This document shows, piece after piece, positions 24,161 to 34,324 of a stretch of DNA of 64,000 nucleotides. Origin of the DNA: Microbispora sp. ZYX-F-249. Lineage in GTDB: Bacteria > Actinomycetota > Actinomycetes > Streptosporangiales > Streptosporangiaceae. How positions within the stretch are numbered: position 1 is the stretch's first letter; every line of letters begins with the position of its first letter. The translations under genes and the position numbers were made by a program. The DNA lies in the NCBI RefSeq assembly GCF_039649665.1, contig NZ_JBDJAW010000041.1, positions 1 to 64,000 on the forward strand, written 5' to 3'. The notes below the pieces were generated by a model. It made no database searches and had not been told where the DNA came from. It was given only the letters and a program-made list of their open reading frames with translations.

Positions 24161-24184
24161 CCCCGCCCACGCCGCCTAGGTAAA

Positions 24185-24198
24185 GAATCACGTGATTC
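24185..24198. promoter_or_regulatory. 14-bp perfect palindrome
   Basis: GAATCACGTGATTC is a perfect dyad lying 24 bases after the SDR stop and 39 bases before the next gene's ATG. The CACGTG core and full symmetry make a dimeric regulator site likely. It has too little GC and no loop to be a good terminator. Confidence 0.55.
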
Positions 24199-24224
24199 AG
24201 GAGCGGTTTAGACAAAAAATCGGT

Positions 24225-24236
24225 TAATGTCCGTTC
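24225..24236 (+). promoter_or_regulatory. Putative -10 element of a leaderless transcript
   Basis: TAATGT at 24225-24230 is the best -10-like hexamer in an unusually AT-rich patch (GACAAAAAATCGGTTAATG). It ends six bases before the ATG at 24237, and no Shine-Dalgarno sits in range. Transcription starting at or beside the ATG would give a leaderless mRNA, which is common in actinobacteria. Confidence 0.4.
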
Positions 24237-25109
24237 ATGTCCGGCGCATATTTCCCTCGTATCCAGACCGTCACGGGCGCCGTCCCCGCCTCCGAGATCG
24301 ACGGGCCGGTGCTCCCGTACGAGCATCTGCGCACCGACACCCGCTGGGGGATCGGCGTGGACTCCGATCCCCATCGGTGGCTGGACGAGGAGCGGTACGT
24401 GCTGGCCGAGGTCAAGCACCTCGGCAGGGAACAGGCGCTGGGCCTCGTGGTGGAGCACAGCTGCATCGGCATGGCGCGCGACCCCGCCGCGCTCGCCCGG
24501 ATCTCGATGGCCTCGCGGGTGCCGATCGTGGCCGCCACCGGCTTCGCCGCGCAGCCGTTCGCCGGTGAGGCCATCACGCGGTACGGCGTGGAGGACCTGA
24601 CCGCCGATCTGCTGCACGAGATCGGCGCCGGGCTGGACGGGACGGGCGCGCGGCCGGGGGTCATCATCACCGCCTCGTGGGACGAGACACCCACCCCCGC
24701 CGAGGAGCGGGCCGTCACGGCCGCCGCCCGCGCCTCGCTGCGCACCGACCTCCCGGTCGCGACGGGCGGGCTGGAACTGCTGGAGCTGCTGCTCTCGCAG
24801 AACGTTCCCGCCCGGCGTCTCGCCGCCCGCACCGGCGACCCGCTGGCCCAGCGCAAGATCGCCGAGACCGGCGCGTACGTGAGCGTGGACGACGCGGAGG
24901 GGGTCCTCACCCTCCTCGACGCCGGGCACGCCGAGCGCGTCCTGCTGAGCAGCGGCGTACGCCTGCGGGAGCACCTGTCCGGCTACGGCGGGCAGGGCTA
25001 CGGGCGGCTGTTCTCCTCGGTCCTCCCGGCCCTGCGGGAGGCCGGCGTGGACGACGACACCCTGCGCCTGATCACGCACGGCAACCCCCTCCGCTGGCTC
25101 ACCCCCTGA
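24237..25109 (+). CDS. Phosphotriesterase-fold protein lacking metal ligands
   Basis: This 290-residue protein follows the phosphotriesterase/PHP amidohydrolase family from end to end: N-terminal IQTVTGAVPASEI and LPYEHLRTD, middle VPIVAATGF, and C-terminal GGQGYGRLFSSVLP, PALREAG and NPLRWL. In active relatives HxH, a carboxylated Lys, two further His and an Asp hold two metals. Here HxH is YEH, the Lys position reads GVIITAS, the THS position reads VATGG, the IGHLGDT position reads LAARTGDP, and the LSHD motif reads LLSSG. Only one ligand remains. It is probably a pseudoenzyme or has a metal-independent role. Reading frame and codon usage are intact, so the change is not decay. Confidence 0.8.
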   Translation: MSGAYFPRIQTVTGAVPASEIDGPVLPYEHLRTDTRWGIGVDSDPHRWLDEERYVLAEVKHLGREQALGLVVEHSCIGMARDPAALARISMASRVPIVAATGFAAQPFAGEAITRYGVEDLTADLLHEIGAGLDGTGARPGVIITASWDETPTPAEERAVTAAARASLRTDLPVATGGLELLELLLSQNVPARRLAARTGDPLAQRKIAETGAYVSVDDAEGVLTLLDAGHAERVLLSSGVRLREHLSGYGGQGYGRLFSSVLPALREAGVDDDTLRLITHGNPLRWLTP

Positions 25110-26097: not shown

Positions 26098-27231
26098 TCA
26101 GTGGTCGCCGGCGCCGGCGAAGTCGGGTAGCTCGGTGGACAGCAGCCCGTCGGCGGCGCCGTCGAGGAGCCGGGCCATCTCCGTGGAGCGGGGAAGCATG
26201 GTCTCCTCGTACGCGCGGACGGCCTCGCCGACGGTGTCGTGGCGGGCGATGGCGAGGGCGAGTTCGCATGCGTCCAGCATCGCGAGGTTGACGCCGACGC
26301 CGAGCGGAGGCATGAGGTGGGCGGCGTCGCCGAGCAGGGTCATCGTGGGGTTGTGCTCCCAGGCGTGCGGGACCGGCAGGGCGAAGATCGGGCGGTCGAC
26401 GTAAGGGCCGTCGTTGTCGGCGATCAGCCGGCGCAGGCGGGGTGACCAGTCACGGTAGCGCTCCAGAAGGTGGGCGCGGAGGCCGTCGGTGTCAACAGGG
26501 GTGAGACCGCCGGCGGTGATCCAGTCGGCCGGGACGCGCTGGATGATGTAGACGCGGATGCGGTCGCCGCCGTTGCGCTGGGCGAACAGGCCGCGGTCGC
26601 CGTCCGCCGCGGCCGCGCTGCCCTGGCCGACGAGCTCGGCGATGCCGGGGTGCCGGGTCTCGACGTCGTGGAACCAGGCTTCCAGGAAGCTGACGCCGGT
26701 GTAGCGGGGGGTGGCCCCGGAGACCGCGCGGCGGACCGTGGACCAGGCGCCGTCGGCGCCGACGACGAGGTCGGCTTCGATGGTGGTGCCGTCCGTGAAG
26801 TGCAGCTGCCGGGGGCCTTCAACCGGACCGCCGACGGCCCGCAGGGCGTGGCCCCAGCGTACGGTGCCGGGCTGGAGCGACTTGAGCAGCAGGTCGCGCA
26901 GCCGGCCGCGGTCGATCTCCGGTTTGACCCGCTCGCCCTGCTCGGGGACGTGGTGGAAGAGGATCGTGCCCGCCGGGTCCATCTGGCGCATCTCCTGGCC
27001 CTCGGGCCTGGCCAGTTCGAAGAACTCCTCCAGGAGGCCGGCTTCGCGCAGGGCGATCTGGCCGTTGCCGGCGTGCAGGTCGAGGGTGCCGCCCTGGTCG
27101 CGGGCGGCGGGGCCGGGGTCGCGCTCGTAGACGGTGGCGGCGATGCCACGCCGCTGGAGGATGCGAGCGCAGATCAGGCCGCCGGGGCCGGCTCCGACGA
27201 TGGCGATCCGGGGTGCCGGAGTGGTGTCCAT
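26098..27231 (-). CDS. TetX-like FAD-dependent monooxygenase
   Basis: This 377-residue protein is a class A flavoprotein monooxygenase. FAD-binding GAGPGGL is at residues 12-18, YERDPGP ends the second strand, the DG motif is GADGAWSTVR, and the GD motif is LLGDAAHLMPPLGVGVNLAM. The set and the MPPxGxGVNLAMLDA pattern resemble TetX and related aromatic hydroxylases, which use NADPH and oxygen. I chose the ATG at 27231 because CGGAG is well placed. It is divergent from a TetR regulator, which probably controls it in response to the substrate. Tetracycline modification is possible but unproven. Confidence 0.88.
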   Translation of the reverse strand: MDTTPAPRIAIVGAGPGGLICARILQRRGIAATVYERDPGPAARDQGGTLDLHAGNGQIALREAGLLEEFFELARPEGQEMRQMDPAGTILFHHVPEQGERVKPEIDRGRLRDLLLKSLQPGTVRWGHALRAVGGPVEGPRQLHFTDGTTIEADLVVGADGAWSTVRRAVSGATPRYTGVSFLEAWFHDVETRHPGIAELVGQGSAAAADGDRGLFAQRNGGDRIRVYIIQRVPADWITAGGLTPVDTDGLRAHLLERYRDWSPRLRRLIADNDGPYVDRPIFALPVPHAWEHNPTMTLLGDAAHLMPPLGVGVNLAMLDACELALAIARHDTVGEAVRAYEETMLPRSTEMARLLDGAADGLLSTELPDFAGAGDH

Positions 27232-27425
27232 GGTGGTGCTCCGTCCGTTCGGGACGGCAGTGCCGTGACTGCCGTGGTGAAGGGATGCCTGGGTGAGGGG
27301 TCGGCGGGTCTCGCCGAGGACAGAAGACGGCCGGGCGGCGCCTCGAAACCGTCGCCCAAGAGAAACACACCAACCCAATAAGTGCAACAGAACAACTTTT
27401 GGAGTCGGTCAACCCAGGAGGTAGG

Positions 27426-28115
27426 GTGCCGGGTATGCCCGACACCACGACCGGCCCCACGACCGGCCCCACGACCGGCCCCACGACCGGCGCCACGACC
27501 GGCCCCACGACCGGCGCCGCGGCGGGTCCCGCTCCCGCGCCGGTGGGGCGCCGCGAGCGCAAGAAGGCCGCCACCCGCCAGGCCATCGCCGACGCCGCGC
27601 TGCGCCTGTTCCTGGAGCGCGGCTACGACGAGGTCGGCATTCGCGAGATCGCGGACGCCGCCGACGTGTCCACCACCACGCTGTTCAAGCACTTCCCGGT
27701 CAAGGAGGCCCTCGTCTTCGACGAGGACTCCGACCAGGAGACCCGCCTGCTCGCCGCCGTCCGCGAGCGGCCCGAGGGCCAGTCCATCCCCGGCGCGCTG
27801 CGCGAACACGCCCTGACCACCCGGCTGGCCGCCGCCGACGGCGACGCAGCCTTCACCGCCTTCGCCGACCTGGTGGCCGGCACCCCCGCGCTGCGCGACC
27901 ATGCCCAGAAGATGTGGCTGCGCCACACCGCCGCACTCGCGAAGGCCATCGCCGAGGAGAGCGGCCTCGCCGCGGACGACCCCGTCTGCGCCGCCCTGGC
28001 CCACTTCGCCCTCGAAGCCCCCCGCGCGGCTCACGCCCACGACAACCCCAGAGAGGCCATCATTCGGGCCTTCGACCTCCTGGAACACGGCTGGAACGCG
28101 CTCGCGCAGAAATGA
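27426..28115 (+). CDS. TetR-family transcriptional regulator with repeat-rich N-terminus
   Basis: This repressor of about 229 residues has a standard TetR DNA-binding domain (RQAIADAALRLFLERGYDEVGIREIADAADVS, interrupted by none, then TTTLFKHF) and an all-helical ligand domain. Before it lies an unusual tail of about 40 residues dominated by GPTT units, encoded by six 12-bp tandem repeats. The start is uncertain: GTG at 27426 is four bases after AGGAGG and is my choice, while an ATG three codons later is possible. It is divergent from the TetX-like monooxygenase and likely represses it and itself. The shared 194-base gap is AT-richer near 27360-27410. Confidence 0.88.
   Translation: MPGMPDTTTGPTTGPTTGPTTGATTGPTTGAAAGPAPAPVGRRERKKAATRQAIADAALRLFLERGYDEVGIREIADAADVSTTTLFKHFPVKEALVFDEDSDQETRLLAAVRERPEGQSIPGALREHALTTRLAAADGDAAFTAFADLVAGTPALRDHAQKMWLRHTAALAKAIAEESGLAADDPVCAALAHFALEAPRAAHAHDNPREAIIRAFDLLEHGWNALAQK
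27447..27518 (+). repeat. Six 12-bp tandem repeats inside TetR gene
   Basis: The unit ACGACCGGCCCC occurs four times exactly and twice with one change (GGCGCC ending), head to tail and in frame, each coding Thr-Thr-Gly-Pro or Thr-Thr-Gly-Ala. Length variation between strains by slippage would keep the frame, so copy number could tune the tail without breaking the regulator. Confidence 0.9.
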
Positions 28116-28815: not shown

Positions 28816-30210
28816 TCAGGAGTCGAAGCCGACGCCGAAAGCGTCGAGGGTGCGCAGCCAGGCGTTGCGGCGGCCCTCGTGCTCGTCGGCCCGGGCGATG
28901 GCCCAGCGCGTGAGCTGGATGACGCCGGACCGCACCGGCTCGGGTGGGAAGGGCACCGGCTTCTCCCGCACCATGCGCAGGTCCGTACGCTCGGTCACCC
29001 GGCCCTGCAGCAGGTCGAGCATGACGTTGGCCCCGAACCGGGTCGCGCCCACGCCGAGGCCGGTGTATCCGGCGGCGTAGGCGAGGCGCGAGCCGTACGC
29101 GGTGCCGAAGAAGGCGCTGAACCGGCTGCAGGTGTCGATGACCCCGCCCCACCTGTGGGTGAAGCGCAGGCCGTGGAGCTGCGGGAACGTCTCGAAGAAG
29201 TGCGTGGCGAGCTTCTCGAAGGTGGCGTCGCGCTGGTCGTACTCCGGCCTGACCAGGCCGCCGTTGTGATAGACGGCGTCGTAGCCGCCCCACAGGATCC
29301 GGTTGTCGTCGGTCAGACGGTAGTAGTGGAACCGGTTGGCCGAGTCGCCGATGCCCTGGCGGTTCCGCCAGCCGATCTCCGCCAGCAGGTCGTCCGGCAC
29401 CGGCTCGGTCATCAGCGCGTAGTCGTACACCGGCACGAGGAAGTGCCTGAGCCGGCGCAGCAGCGGCGGGAACGCGCCGGTGCCGAGGGCCACCCGCCCG
29501 GCCCTGACCCGGCCCTTCGGCGTGCCGAGTTCGAGCGCCACGCCGTCGTCGTGCAGGGAGCGCACCGGCGTGTGCTCGAAGACGCGCACGCCGAGCCGCA
29601 CGCAGACGTCGCGCAGCCCCCACGCCAGCCGCGCCGGGTCGACCATGGCGACGCCCCGCCGGTCCCACACGCCGCCGAGGTACGTCGGGGAGTCCACCTC
29701 GGCCCGCACCTGCTCGCGGTCGAGCCGCTCCAGCCGCATGCCGAGCGAGGCGGCCCCGCTCACCTCCTCGTCGAGCCCGGCGAGCTGCCACTCCTCGGTG
29801 GCCACCCGCAGCTCGCCGGTGCGCTCGAAGGAGCAGTCGACGCCGTAGCGGGCGAGGGTCTGCTCGATCTCGTCGAGGTTCTCCAGGCCGAGCCGTTCCA
29901 GGGTCGCGATCTCGGCGGGCCAGCGGTCCTGGCCGTTGCCGAGCCCATGGGTCAGGCTCGCCGCGCAGAACCCGCCGTTGCGACCGGAGGCGGCCCACCC
30001 GACCGCGCGGCCCTCCAGGAGGACCACGTCGAGCGAGGGGTCGCGCTCCTTGGCCATCAGGGCGGTCCACAGGCCGGTGAAGCCGCCGCCGACCACCGCG
30101 AGGTCCGCCGTGACGTCTCCCGTCAGCGGGGGCAGCGGCTCGGGCGCGATCGGCCGGTCCAGCCAGTACGGCTTACGCTCCGCGTCGGCGAGCGCCTTCG
30201 ACGGGACCAC
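28816..30210 (-). CDS. PuuB-like FAD-dependent amine oxidase
   Basis: This 464-residue DAO-family flavoprotein has the N-terminal FAD motif VVGGGFTGLWTAL (about residues 39-51), LLEGRAVGWAASGRNGGFC just after it, and a C-terminal GYTGLGVGATRFGANVMLDLL. The SGRNGGF pattern is typical of gamma-glutamylputrescine oxidase (PuuB) and related oxidases that turn an amine into an aldehyde with release of peroxide. It is the last gene of the operon with the polyamine-type ABC importer and gamma-aminobutyraldehyde-type dehydrogenase, so it likely oxidises an imported polyamine. No PuuA-type ligase or PuuD hydrolase is nearby, so substrate activation is uncertain. GTG start after GAGGAAG. Confidence 0.85.
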   Translation of the reverse strand: MVPSKALADAERKPYWLDRPIAPEPLPPLTGDVTADLAVVGGGFTGLWTALMAKERDPSLDVVLLEGRAVGWAASGRNGGFCAASLTHGLGNGQDRWPAEIATLERLGLENLDEIEQTLARYGVDCSFERTGELRVATEEWQLAGLDEEVSGAASLGMRLERLDREQVRAEVDSPTYLGGVWDRRGVAMVDPARLAWGLRDVCVRLGVRVFEHTPVRSLHDDGVALELGTPKGRVRAGRVALGTGAFPPLLRRLRHFLVPVYDYALMTEPVPDDLLAEIGWRNRQGIGDSANRFHYYRLTDDNRILWGGYDAVYHNGGLVRPEYDQRDATFEKLATHFFETFPQLHGLRFTHRWGGVIDTCSRFSAFFGTAYGSRLAYAAGYTGLGVGATRFGANVMLDLLQGRVTERTDLRMVREKPVPFPPEPVRSGVIQLTRWAIARADEHEGRRNAWLRTLDAFGVGFDS

Positions 30211-30222
30211 GGTTTCACTTCC

Positions 30223-31014
30223 TCACGCGTTGGCGCGGCGGCGTCCCACGAGGGCGTTGACCACGGCGATCAGCACACCGGCCGCGAAGATCAGCGTTCC
30301 CATGACGTTCACCTGCGGCGGGAGGCCGACACGAGTGGCGCCCCAGATCCACAGCGGGAACGTCATGGTGCCGCCGGAGTTGAAGTTGGTGATGACGAAG
30401 TCGTCGATCGACAGCGCGAAGGCCAGCATCGAGCCCGCCAGCACGCCGGGGAAGATCATCGGCAGGGTGACCAGCCGGAACGTCGTCCACGGTCCCGCGC
30501 CGAGGTCGCGGGCCGCCTCCTCCAGGGAGGCGTCGAGCGTCATCACCCGGGCCCGCACGGTCACGGCCACGAACGAGATCGAGAACATGACGTGCGAGAT
30601 CAGGATCGTCACGAATCCGAGGGGCACGGCGAGCGTGACGAACAGCGACAGCAGCGACGCGCCCATCACGATCTCGGCGCAGGAGATCGCCGCGAACATC
30701 ACGAGGTTCATCGCCCCGGAGCCGCGGAAGCGGTAGCGGCCGAGCGCCAGCCCGATCAGCGACCCGAGCACCCCGGCGATCAGCATCGTCAGCACGGCGA
30801 TGAGCAGCGAGTTCACCAGCGCCTGGGTGAGGTCGCCGATCTCGAACAGCTTGCCGTACCACTTGAGCGTGAAGCCCTGCCAGGCCGTGTTGTACCGGCC
30901 CTTGGTGTCGTTGAAGCCGAAAAGGATCATCACGGCGATCGGCAGCACGAGCCACGCGATCACCAGCCAGGTGTAGATCTGCAGGCCGCGGCCGCGCAGC
31001 AGGCCACCCCTCAT
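30223..31014 (-). CDS. Polyamine-type ABC importer permease (PotC-like)
   Basis: This 263-residue inner-membrane permease has six helices and the EAA-loop motif typical of importers (SLEEAARDLGAGPWTTFRLVTLP, about residues 160-182). The family PotC/YdcV start is also seen (LPIAVMILFGFNDTKG). It forms the channel with the PotB-like subunit, whose stop its ATG overlaps (ATGA). Together they should pass putrescine, spermidine or a related amine delivered by the binding protein. The oxidase gene follows after 12 bases. Confidence 0.92.
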   Translation of the reverse strand: MRGGLLRGRGLQIYTWLVIAWLVLPIAVMILFGFNDTKGRYNTAWQGFTLKWYGKLFEIGDLTQALVNSLLIAVLTMLIAGVLGSLIGLALGRYRFRGSGAMNLVMFAAISCAEIVMGASLLSLFVTLAVPLGFVTILISHVMFSISFVAVTVRARVMTLDASLEEAARDLGAGPWTTFRLVTLPMIFPGVLAGSMLAFALSIDDFVITNFNSGGTMTFPLWIWGATRVGLPPQVNVMGTLIFAAGVLIAVVNALVGRRRANA

Positions 31015-31874
31015 CGGGCCGCCACCTCCAGCACGTCCTCGGTGCCGAGCGCCTTGGCGTACGCGAAGATGCCCACCAGCAGCAGGGCCATCAGCGTGAA
31101 CGACAGCGCCGAGGCGGTCGGGTAGTCCTGGTTGACCAGGAACTGGTTCTGGATGACGTTGCCGATCATGGTGTTGCTGGTGCCGCCGAGCACGGAGGCG
31201 TTGACGTAGTCGGACGTGGCCGGCACGAACGTCATCAGCACGCCGGCGAACACTCCCGGCAGCGACAGCGGCAGCACGACGCGCAGGAAGGTCTGCAGCT
31301 TGCTCGCGTAGAGGTCCTGCGCGGCCTCCAGGACGCGCGGGTCGATCCGCTCCAGCGCCACGTACATCGGCAGGATCATGAACGGCAGGAAGTTGTACGC
31401 CAGGCCGCCGATGACCGCCGCGCTCGTGGCCAGGATGTGGAAGTCCTGCGGCACCAGCCCCAGCGACTTCAGCGGCCCGAGCAGCATGCCGTTGTCGGAC
31501 AGGAAGAACTGCCAGGAGATGGTGCGCAGCACGAACGACACCAGGAAGGGCAGCAGCAGGAGGAACAGGTAGATCGACTTGCGGTTGCCGCCCTTGAAGG
31601 CGATCCAGTACGCCACCGGGAACCCGATGACGATCTGGATCACCGTCGAGATCACGCCGTACACCACGGACCGGATGATCTGGTCGTGGTAGGTGCTGAT
31701 CCCGTCGACGTAGCTGTGCCAGTTGAACGTGAACGCGTAACCGTTCACGACGTCGCCCGACTGCAGCGACAGCGACAGCATGACGACCGTCGGGATGACG
31801 AAGAAGATCGCCAGCCAGAGCGTGCCCGGGAAGAGCAGCAGGTACGGCGTCAGCGAAGCCTTGAGCCTGCTCAT
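31011..31874 (-). CDS. Polyamine-type ABC importer permease (PotB-like)
   Basis: This 287-residue permease has six helices and the EAA loop RVLEAAQDLYASKLQTFLRVVLPLSLP (seen as VLEAAQDLYA followed by RVVLP). The TSDYVNASVLGG segment before the last helix is typical of PotB/PotH. Its start overlaps the binding-protein stop by ATGA, and its stop overlaps the PotC-like start the same way, so the core transporter genes are translationally coupled. Confidence 0.92.
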   Translation of the reverse strand: MSRLKASLTPYLLLFPGTLWLAIFFVIPTVVMLSLSLQSGDVVNGYAFTFNWHSYVDGISTYHDQIIRSVVYGVISTVIQIVIGFPVAYWIAFKGGNRKSIYLFLLLLPFLVSFVLRTISWQFFLSDNGMLLGPLKSLGLVPQDFHILATSAAVIGGLAYNFLPFMILPMYVALERIDPRVLEAAQDLYASKLQTFLRVVLPLSLPGVFAGVLMTFVPATSDYVNASVLGGTSNTMIGNVIQNQFLVNQDYPTASALSFTLMALLLVGIFAYAKALGTEDVLEVAAR

Positions 31875-33130
31875 GACGTCGTGATCGCCTGGAAGATGGA
31901 CTCGAACTTCTTCTGCTCCTGCGGCGTCTTGAACTTGACGTAGCTGCGCAGCCTGGCGGAGTCCTCCGCGCTCGGGAAGACCAGCGGGCTGCTCGCCACC
32001 TCCTCCAGGAGCTTCTTGTCGTCGCCCGACGCCTTGGCCGCGTCGGCGGCGATGACGTCCTTGGCGGCCGGGACCGGCGTCACGTAGTTGATGTACTCCG
32101 CGAGGTGCGCCGCCACGTTCACGTCGTAGAAGAAGTCCATCAGCATGATCGCGTCGACCGGGTTCGCCGCGGTCTTCGGGATCGTCATGTTGTCGGTCCA
32201 GATGGTCCCGCCCTCCTGCGGCACCACGAACTTGAGGTCCGTGCCGTCGGAGACGTTCTTCTGGAAGACGTCGCCCGACCAGGCCATGGCGAGCCAGATG
32301 TCACCCTTGGCCAGCGGGTCCATGTACGCCTGGTCGTAGTACTTGCGGACGATGCCGCCGTCGCGCTGCTCCTGGAGCTTGGCCCCGGCCTTCTCCCAGT
32401 CCGCCTCGGTGGACTTGTCGGGGTCGGCGCCGATCGCGAACATGCCGAAGTTGGCGATCTCCTGGGAGTCGGACATCATGCCGACCTTGCCCTTGTACTT
32501 GGGGTTCCACAGCTCGGCGATGCTGGTCGGCGGGGTGTCGATGTACTTCGGGTTGTACGCGATGCCCGTCATGCCGGAGGCCCACGGGATGCTGTAGACG
32601 TTGCCCGGGTCGAACGACTCGTTCTTGTACTGCTCCGCCACGTTCGCCGCGAAGTTCGGCAGCTTGGAGTGGTCGAGCGGCGCCAGGTAGCCGAGCTGGA
32701 CGAGCTGCTCGAAGTGCAGGCCGTTGGTGACGACCATGAGGTCGTAGTCGATGGGCTGCCCCGCGGCGAGCTGCGGCTGGATCTTGGCGAACCAGCTCGG
32801 CATCTCGAGGATGACCTCTTTGTAGTTCACCGTGATGCCGGTCTGCTGGGTGAACTGCTTGAGCTCGGGCTGCTTGGGGTCCATGTAGAGCGGCCAGTTG
32901 GCGAAGTCGACGTGGCCGTTCTTCGTCTTGCCCGACCAGAACTTCTCCACCTCGGACTGGGCCTGGGCGGAGGAGGTCGGCTTGGCCGTGCCCTTGCCCT
33001 GCACACCGCAGGCGGCGAGGGCGAGCCCGGCGGCCGACAGTCCCGCGAGCCGGAAGGCGTCGCGCCTGCCGAGCCGGCGCTGGGTCATGCCACGGAGGAT
33101 GGCGGGGTCCTGCCTGTATGGGTGGTTCAT
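31871..33130 (-). CDS. Polyamine-type ABC importer binding lipoprotein (PotD-like)
   Basis: This 419-residue solute-binding protein has a twin-arginine-like start (GRRDAFRLAGLSAAG) followed by lipobox LALAAC, so it is probably exported folded and anchored through the Cys near residue 41. The mature part has the PotD-family pattern: ANWPLYMD early, YDLMVVTNG, YSIPWASGMTGIAYN, and NYVTPVPAAKD late. Such proteins capture putrescine or spermidine outside the membrane and dock to the PotBC channel. Start at 33130 keeps a short positive leader; an internal ATG 14 codons later would still contain the export signal. The next gene overlaps by four bases. Confidence 0.92.
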   Translation of the reverse strand: MNHPYRQDPAILRGMTQRRLGRRDAFRLAGLSAAGLALAACGVQGKGTAKPTSSAQAQSEVEKFWSGKTKNGHVDFANWPLYMDPKQPELKQFTQQTGITVNYKEVILEMPSWFAKIQPQLAAGQPIDYDLMVVTNGLHFEQLVQLGYLAPLDHSKLPNFAANVAEQYKNESFDPGNVYSIPWASGMTGIAYNPKYIDTPPTSIAELWNPKYKGKVGMMSDSQEIANFGMFAIGADPDKSTEADWEKAGAKLQEQRDGGIVRKYYDQAYMDPLAKGDIWLAMAWSGDVFQKNVSDGTDLKFVVPQEGGTIWTDNMTIPKTAANPVDAIMLMDFFYDVNVAAHLAEYINYVTPVPAAKDVIAADAAKASGDDKKLLEEVASSPLVFPSAEDSARLRSYVKFKTPQEQKKFESIFQAITTS

Positions 33131-33175
33131 TGGGGTGTGGTGCTCCGGGTTCTGTCTACCGCGGGGGTTCGGGTG

Positions 33176-34324
33176 TTACCGCAGGGCGTAGGAGTGCCAG
33201 GGCTGCCAGGAGAGCCAGACCGAGTCGCCCCGCTCGGCGGTGATCGTGCTGTCGTTCGCGTTCTGCTCGAACACCGTGATCTCGGCGCCGTCGCCGAGCA
33301 TCACGACGTAGCTGTTGGAGGTGCCGAGGTAGACGACCTCGGCCACGGTCCCCCGCACGACGCTGAGGTCGCCCTCGGGCCGGTCCTTCGCAATCTTGAT
33401 CTTCTCCGGCCGGACCGTCAGGTCGACGGTCTGGCCGGCCGAGAGCGTGCCGTCCGCGGGGATGAGGATCCGGTCGCTCTGCCCGAGGGCGAGCACGGCG
33501 GTGTCACCGCCGACATGCTGCACCGTTCCGCTCAGCAGGTTGGAGGTGCCGATGAACCCGGCCACGAACTTGCTGGCGGGCCGCTCGTAGATCTCGCGGG
33601 GACCGGCGAGCTGTTCCACGAGGCCGTCGTTCATGACGGCGATGCGGTCGCTCATCGTCAGCGCCTCGCTCTGGTCGTGCGTCACGTAGACGAACGTGAT
33701 GCCGACCTCACGCTGGATGCGCTTGAGCTCGATCTGCATGGCCTGGCGGAGCTTGAGGTCGAGCGCGCCGAGCGGCTCGTCGAGCAGGAGCGCGCGGGGC
33801 CGGTTGACCAGCGCGCGGGCGAGCGCGACGCGCTGCTGCTGGCCTCCCGACATCTCCTTCGGCCGGCGCTTCTCGCGGCCGACCAGGTCCACGACCTCCA
33901 GGATCTCCCCGACACGACGCTTGATCTCCGTGTCGGGGACCTTCTTGCGCTTGAGCCCGAACGCGACGTTGTCCCAGACGTTCATGTGCGGGAACAGCGC
34001 GTAGGACTGGAACACCATGTTGATGTCACGCTTGTTCGGCGGGACGTTCGTGACGTCCTCCCCGTGGAGCCTGACGACCCCCTGGGTGGGGTCCTCGAAC
34101 CCGGCGATCATTCGCATGCTGGTGGTCTTGCCGCAGCCTGAGGGGCCGAGGAGGGAGAAGAACTCCCCCTCCGCGATGGCGAGGCTCACGCCCTTGACCG
34201 CCCGTACGACCTCGCCGTGCGAGACGTACTCCTTCACCACGTTGTCGAGTTCGATGGCGGGCACGTCTCCTGATACGGGGGCAGCCGCGACGGCTGCCCC
34301 CGGGCCCGCCTGGATCTCTGTCAT
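33176..34324 (-). CDS. Polyamine-type ABC importer ATPase (PotA-like)
   Basis: This 382-residue ATPase has Walker A GPSGCGKTTS near residue 59, Q-loop VFQSYALFPHM, signature MSGGQQQRVALARAL near 155, Walker B ALLLDEPLGALDLK and switch VYVTHDQSEALT. The C-terminal TOBE domain carries VRPEKIKI. The spacing and the GALDLKLR and FIGTSN elements match PotA. It energises the importer encoded downstream. The first 24 residues are a flexible Ala-rich tail. The dehydrogenase gene lies 51 bases upstream, so all six genes probably form one transcript. Confidence 0.93.
   Translation of the reverse strand: MTEIQAGPGAAVAAAPVSGDVPAIELDNVVKEYVSHGEVVRAVKGVSLAIAEGEFFSLLGPSGCGKTTSMRMIAGFEDPTQGVVRLHGEDVTNVPPNKRDINMVFQSYALFPHMNVWDNVAFGLKRKKVPDTEIKRRVGEILEVVDLVGREKRRPKEMSGGQQQRVALARALVNRPRALLLDEPLGALDLKLRQAMQIELKRIQREVGITFVYVTHDQSEALTMSDRIAVMNDGLVEQLAGPREIYERPASKFVAGFIGTSNLLSGTVQHVGGDTAVLALGQSDRILIPADGTLSAGQTVDLTVRPEKIKIAKDRPEGDLSVVRGTVAEVVYLGTSNSYVVMLGDGAEITVFEQNANDSTITAERGDSVWLSWQPWHSYALR

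Follow-up and report, generated by a model that had tools for sequence, protein, structure and literature searches.

The window (the whole stretch of 64,000 nucleotides of Microbispora sp. ZYX-F-249 that was analysed) contains a gene for a protein related to PHP, the phosphotriesterase homology protein encoded by php in the yhf operon. The gene, its former metal-ligand codons and its upstream elements are listed in Table 1. In a profile search, the phosphotriesterase (PTE) family PF02126 of Pfam was the single domain of the protein (residues 25-289), and its 98.2 bits against a curated cut-off of 22.4 place the protein in the family by descent and fold; the profile was matched at E ≤ 0.001 by 37 of 37 sequences, comprising the window protein and those of 36 related loci. 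The AlphaFold model contained a complete (beta/alpha)8 barrel of PTE type, and the claim of the earlier note that the whole phosphotriesterase fold is present was thus borne out, as was its report of the kept C-terminal motifs GGQGYG and NPLRW.

Table 1. Position of the eroded gene, its former ligand sites and its putative promoter elements in the window.
Feature	Position	Strand	Remark
GTAAAG upstream box	24180..24185	+	set distance from the -10-like element
TAATGT, -10-like element	24225..24230	+	6 nt before ATG; putative leaderless promoter
Eroded Php-related PTE-fold protein, 290 aa	24237..25109	+	ATG start; stop included in span
Y28-E29-H30, former HxH	24318..24326	+	first His lost in the window protein, second kept
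R47	24375..24377	+	Arg in 143/143 eroded proteins, Ala in 19/19 intact sisters
I144, former bridging Glu/carboxy-Lys position	24666..24668	+	from alignment
G177, former third His	24765..24767	+	from alignment
T199, former fourth His	24831..24833	+	from alignment; adjoins a four-column gap
G240, former catalytic/metal Asp	24954..24956	+	Gly in 143/143 eroded proteins

Loss of metal ligands in the window protein

Ligand positions were assigned by alignment with fully liganded relatives and by pairwise alignment to the intact sister protein L109 (43% identity). At the six positions of the PTE-type binuclear set (HxH, a bridging Lys or Glu, two more His and an Asp), the window protein has Tyr28, His30, Ile144, Gly177, Thr199 and Gly240, so that His30 is the only ligand kept. 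The catalytic and metal-binding roles of these six positions are assumed to be those of PTE, in which G177, T199 and G240 presumably correspond to His201, His230 and Asp301. I144 is preceded by a one-residue deletion, and the stretch past strand 7 is ~12 residues shorter than in L109. In the AlphaFold model the former ligand positions lie at or just after the strand ends, and loop 1, which holds R47 and W37, has the lowest pLDDT of the model, the N-terminus aside (block values of 82 and 78). The five motif changes previously read from the letters (YEH, an Ile-like residue, VATGG, ARTGDP and SSG) agreed with the alignment to liganded relatives. The genome also carries a PTE-family paralogue (L046, C8:134541-135521), whose HxH reads TEH and in which the Lys, two further His and the Asp align as present.

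The 297 genomes of the same bacterial family that were searched gave a match at E ≤ 1e-25 in 152, with no internal stops among the matches listed. Eroded proteins were read in 143 of these; the nine genomes left out were G080 and G128, where intact copies were read, G249 and G264, where nothing but the intact copy was read, and G024, G078, G209, G231 and G261 (unread). The Asp site was Gly and position 47 was Arg in all 143 eroded proteins, and W37 was Trp in 139. The remaining ligands were retained unevenly: the first His in 91 proteins, the second in 131, the bridging Glu/Lys in 96, the third His in 53 and the fourth in 8. Counted per protein, no ligand was kept in 8, one in 25, two in 18, three in 56, four in 30 and five in 6. 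Seven pattern matches were obtained among viral sequences, none of which was a relative.

Descent from php and the order of losses

The 19 intact sisters (L086-L099 and L106-L110) all keep HxH, Glu, His, His and Asp, and their loci are actinobacterial yhf-type gene sets with intact PHP. When the operon proteins of L109 were used in tblastn (E ≤ 1e-10), homologues of DUF2620, YhfT, YhfS and YhfX were found near all 19 intact genes, and those of YhfW, YhfZ and the PRD-like protein near 17, 15 and 13 of them, respectively, some loci ending early. The same seven proteins gave no match near any of 54 eroded genes (flanks of about 5-8 kb, less at contig ends, with the short stretches L128-L223 left out) or anywhere in the window; the window gene is thus not part of a yhf operon. 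The L109 locus itself reads YhfZ (NCBIfam, above cut-off), a PRD match just under cut-off, DUF2620, YhfT, the PTE protein, YhfS-like, YhfX-like and YhfW. The last of these matches NCBIfam PRK12383 above cut-off, a model named phosphopentomutase, which we take to be YhfW. The best PDB match of the L109 PTE protein was E. coli PHP. The NCBIfam model for PHP, PRK09875 (cut-off 486), scored 80.1 bits on the window protein, and since L109 also falls short, at 213.2 bits, this model does not separate eroded from intact proteins. Intact and eroded forms occur together in three genomes (G183, G258 and G287), which argues for duplication of php rather than displacement.

A maximum-likelihood tree was built from 81 proteins, leaving out the ligand columns and five partial rows, and a larger FastTree phylogeny from 169 taxa (143 eroded proteins, 19 intact sisters and 7 outgroups). 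With ligand columns masked, the eroded proteins were monophyletic in both (SH-aLRT/UFBoot 97.4/99 in the 81-protein tree; 0.981 in the 169-taxon tree). In the former, some of whose inner branches are weak, the clade adjoins intact paralogues from the same bacterial family. On the 169-taxon tree, and thus on one FastTree topology, the minimum number of changes was one for loss of the Asp (Fitch to Dollo) and one for gain of Arg47 (Fitch), and the minimum losses from Fitch to Dollo were 12-13 for the first His, 5 for the second, 4 for the bridging residue, 15-21 for the third His and 7-19 for the fourth. Site rates were estimated in a 53-protein set, drawn mainly from the 36 related loci and overlapping in species with the 143. 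Ranked by rate among intact sisters, the four His stood at the 5th percentile, with the Asp at the 11th and the bridging residue at the 12th. The corresponding ranks among eroded proteins were the 74th percentile for the first His, the 90th for the third and the 87th for the fourth; the bridging site was average (49th), and the second His, the least decayed ligand, was slower than most sites (28th).

Both trees indicate a single loss of the Asp, followed by repeated losses of the metal ligands, in a clade that appears as sister to the Php of the yhf operon. The comparison of eroded with intact proteins places Asp to Gly and the gain of Arg47 on one ancestral branch, within which the two changes are left unordered. 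Loss counts and rate percentiles together show that most of the metal site was released from selection after a single founding change and then decayed many times. The second His, being slow and widely kept, and the average rate of the bridging site would leave room for one weak metal site in part of the eroded clade. The same His, together with the proteins that retain four or five of the six ligands, would also suit a hydrolase that still depends on metal through rearranged or fewer ligands; against this stand the solitary ligand of the window protein, the eight genomes that keep none, and the three His columns that are fast in the eroded clade and slow in the sisters, and we consider such an enzyme quite improbable.

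In 127 of the 143 eroded genes an in-frame start was preceded at 5-8 nt by a -10-like element, TAAYNT (mean 0.7 and maximum 4 in mononucleotide shuffles), and in 97 it was combined with a GTAAA box at a distance of 38-40 nt (shuffle mean 0.01, maximum 1). Neither was present in any of the 19 intact sisters, compared within the 53-protein set. The closeness of the -10-like element to the start predicts a leaderless transcript, and the eroded gene would thus have a leaderless-type promoter of its own outside the yhf operon. A shared regulon was considered and rejected: two promoter patterns, exact or near-exact, taken from positions 24180-24232 of the window each occurred once in the 8.8 Mb assembly of the same organism and thus pointed to no co-regulated gene. 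Between the GTAAA box and the -10-like element lies a perfect palindrome, GAATCACGTGATTC (24185-24198). Some Microbispora retain it, others carry an altered form, and further out it was not seen.

Selection and newly fixed residues

By a simple pairwise Nei-Gojobori estimate, the median dN/dS of the eroded gene was 0.22 in 78 Microbispora pairs and 0.24 in 15 Planotetraspora pairs, near the values of two neighbour genes (0.19 and 0.20, 13 sources each), and 43 positions were conserved in at least 141 of the 143 eroded proteins. A gene in the course of being lost would account for the progressive loss of ligands; the open frames of the matches listed, these dN/dS values, the conserved positions and the widespread promoter element make that explanation very improbable indeed. 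That selection acts on a protein relieved of PTE-type metallohydrolase requirements is well supported by these sequence comparisons. The earlier note had proposed a selected non-hydrolytic role: dN/dS, site rates and trees uphold selection without the PTE ligands, and ligand binding or a new chemistry, which it also named, are compatible with the data.

Relative to the intact sisters, ten positions were newly fixed in the eroded proteins, among them W37, S43, R47 and E51 of loop 1 and P107 of loop 3. In the predicted model seven of the ten lie on the catalytic face, compared with 78 of 290 residues overall (p = 0.005; 0.0005 to 0.019 across 15 cut-offs), a test that used the strand ends of one predicted model and a face defined after the residues were known. 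The three off the face are R94, E183 and K207. Conserved residues shared by eroded proteins and sisters had no such bias in the model (8 of 37 on the face). Y250 was dropped as a new invariant; it was conserved in 142 of the 143 survey genomes and was Tyr in only 31 of the 36 related loci. Without it the face test gave six of nine (p = 0.013).

E29, D34, R36, R47 and E51 were each invariant in all 143 eroded proteins, and the catalytic face is enriched in gained residues, as would be expected if the protein were still an enzyme with a new, metal-free chemistry carried out there by these five residues and H30. However, the 19 liganded sisters share E29 and D34 without exception, so these two may be structural, and the neighbouring genes vary by genus and suggest no shared pathway; we regard such an enzyme as unlikely. 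The PTE loops matching loops 1 and 3 form a dimer interface, and five newly fixed residues (W37, S43, R47, E51 and P107) sit in them. These residues, and the shortened stretch past strand 7, could therefore mark an oligomer or protein-protein interface in a structural or partner protein whose old pocket is unused. Gly at the Asp site without exception suggests constraint inside that pocket rather than drift, and a partner role is accordingly held to be improbable, to much the same degree as a new enzyme.

A putative pseudoenzyme and its context

The gene probably does a job in these soil actinomycetes other than that of the ancestral metal-using hydrolase. Judged by sequence, the protein has the attributes of a pseudoenzyme: it is an enzyme homologue, lacks required catalytic residues and is kept by selection. 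The reading we favour, with a probability of about 0.5, is a selected pseudoenzyme derived from php that serves as a sensor or carrier of an anionic ligand at the barrel mouth. As the comparison shows, a php copy lost the catalytic Asp to Gly and gained Arg47 on one ancestral branch, and it now stands outside the yhf operon with a putative leaderless-type promoter of its own. Metal binding then went unselected, and on both trees the His and Glu ligands decayed many times independently. The barrel stayed fixed, as did a newly acquired residue set located mainly on the former catalytic face. A small anionic, perhaps phosphorylated, ligand may be held at the barrel mouth by R47, W37 and the Gly-containing loop past the last strand, since the invariant Gly, the invariant Arg and the near-invariant Trp of loop 1 would suit such a ligand, which the protein would sense or carry unhydrolysed. 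R47 and W37 would then have to reach into the pocket from loop 1. This binding step is the least secure, because loop 1 is modelled with less certainty and might instead, like its counterpart in PTE, contribute to a partner interface. For the clade as a whole, we suggest tentatively, at somewhat less than even odds, that a single ancestral change, in which Gly replaced Asp, Arg replaced Ala in loop 1 and the gene came to be expressed leaderless outside the operon, made a metal-free receptor or a new metal-free enzyme, of which species now keep from five ligands to none.

E. coli PHP (YhfV; PDB 1bf6, 4lef) and its actinobacterial relatives lie beside yhf genes, the 19 sisters with their full ligand set, whereas the window protein has one ligand of six, R47 and G240, and lies outside that operon. 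The resiniferatoxin-binding phosphotriesterase-related protein of Rhodobacter (3k2g) aligns with HEH and the LSHD Asp, both of which the window protein lacks. PTER (PDB 9efa) is an N-acetyltaurine hydrolase according to the title of PMC11374699. Pseudoenzymes are relatives of enzymes without catalytic function, typically descended from a catalytic ancestor (PMC10754289), and the window protein resembles those of other families in being enzyme-derived and without catalytic residues; a term search of that paper gave no mention of phosphotriesterase. A literature search joining phosphotriesterase with pseudoenzyme-type terms, beyond whose reach most subscription papers lay, returned nothing. On sequence grounds, the clade would be one of pseudoenzymes with living intermediates, a part of the PTE family in ancestry and fold that lacks the metallohydrolase ligand set. 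Its graded living forms, from five ligands to none, and the intact paralogue in three genomes as an internal reference make the order of events in metal-site loss directly testable; if the clade-wide reading is true, that loss could be replayed protein by protein. R47 and loop 1 offer a defined place to look for a new function. In many of these actinomycetes, a gene matching the PTE family probably does not encode a hydrolase of the PTE kind.

The small group described previously, in which an SDR and a dehalogenase-like hydrolase accompany the gene, did not hold up among the 36 related loci: an alpha/beta hydrolase was present at 3 and an SDR at 23 (tblastn, E ≤ 1e-20), the SDR ending within ~90 bases of the eroded gene in 11 of the 23 and further off in the remainder. 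Genes called with a crude ORF script included oxidoreductase and transport genes beside the eroded gene in Microbispora-type loci, and a BrkB-like protein and, by eye, a sulphite reductase in Actinomadura-type loci. Because these neighbours change between genera, operon context was dropped as a clue to function.

Elsewhere in the window, an FAD monooxygenase distantly like Tet(X) (26098-27387, minus strand; only 172.5 bits where the cut-off is 750) is divergent from a TetR-type regulator (27399-28115, plus strand). At 28816-33985 (minus strand), an FAD-dependent oxidoreductase (DAO, by family match) is followed by genes that by eye resemble a polyamine-type transporter, with permeases, a binding protein and an ATPase. 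Members of this oxidoreductase cluster were found in 26 of the 37 sources compared.
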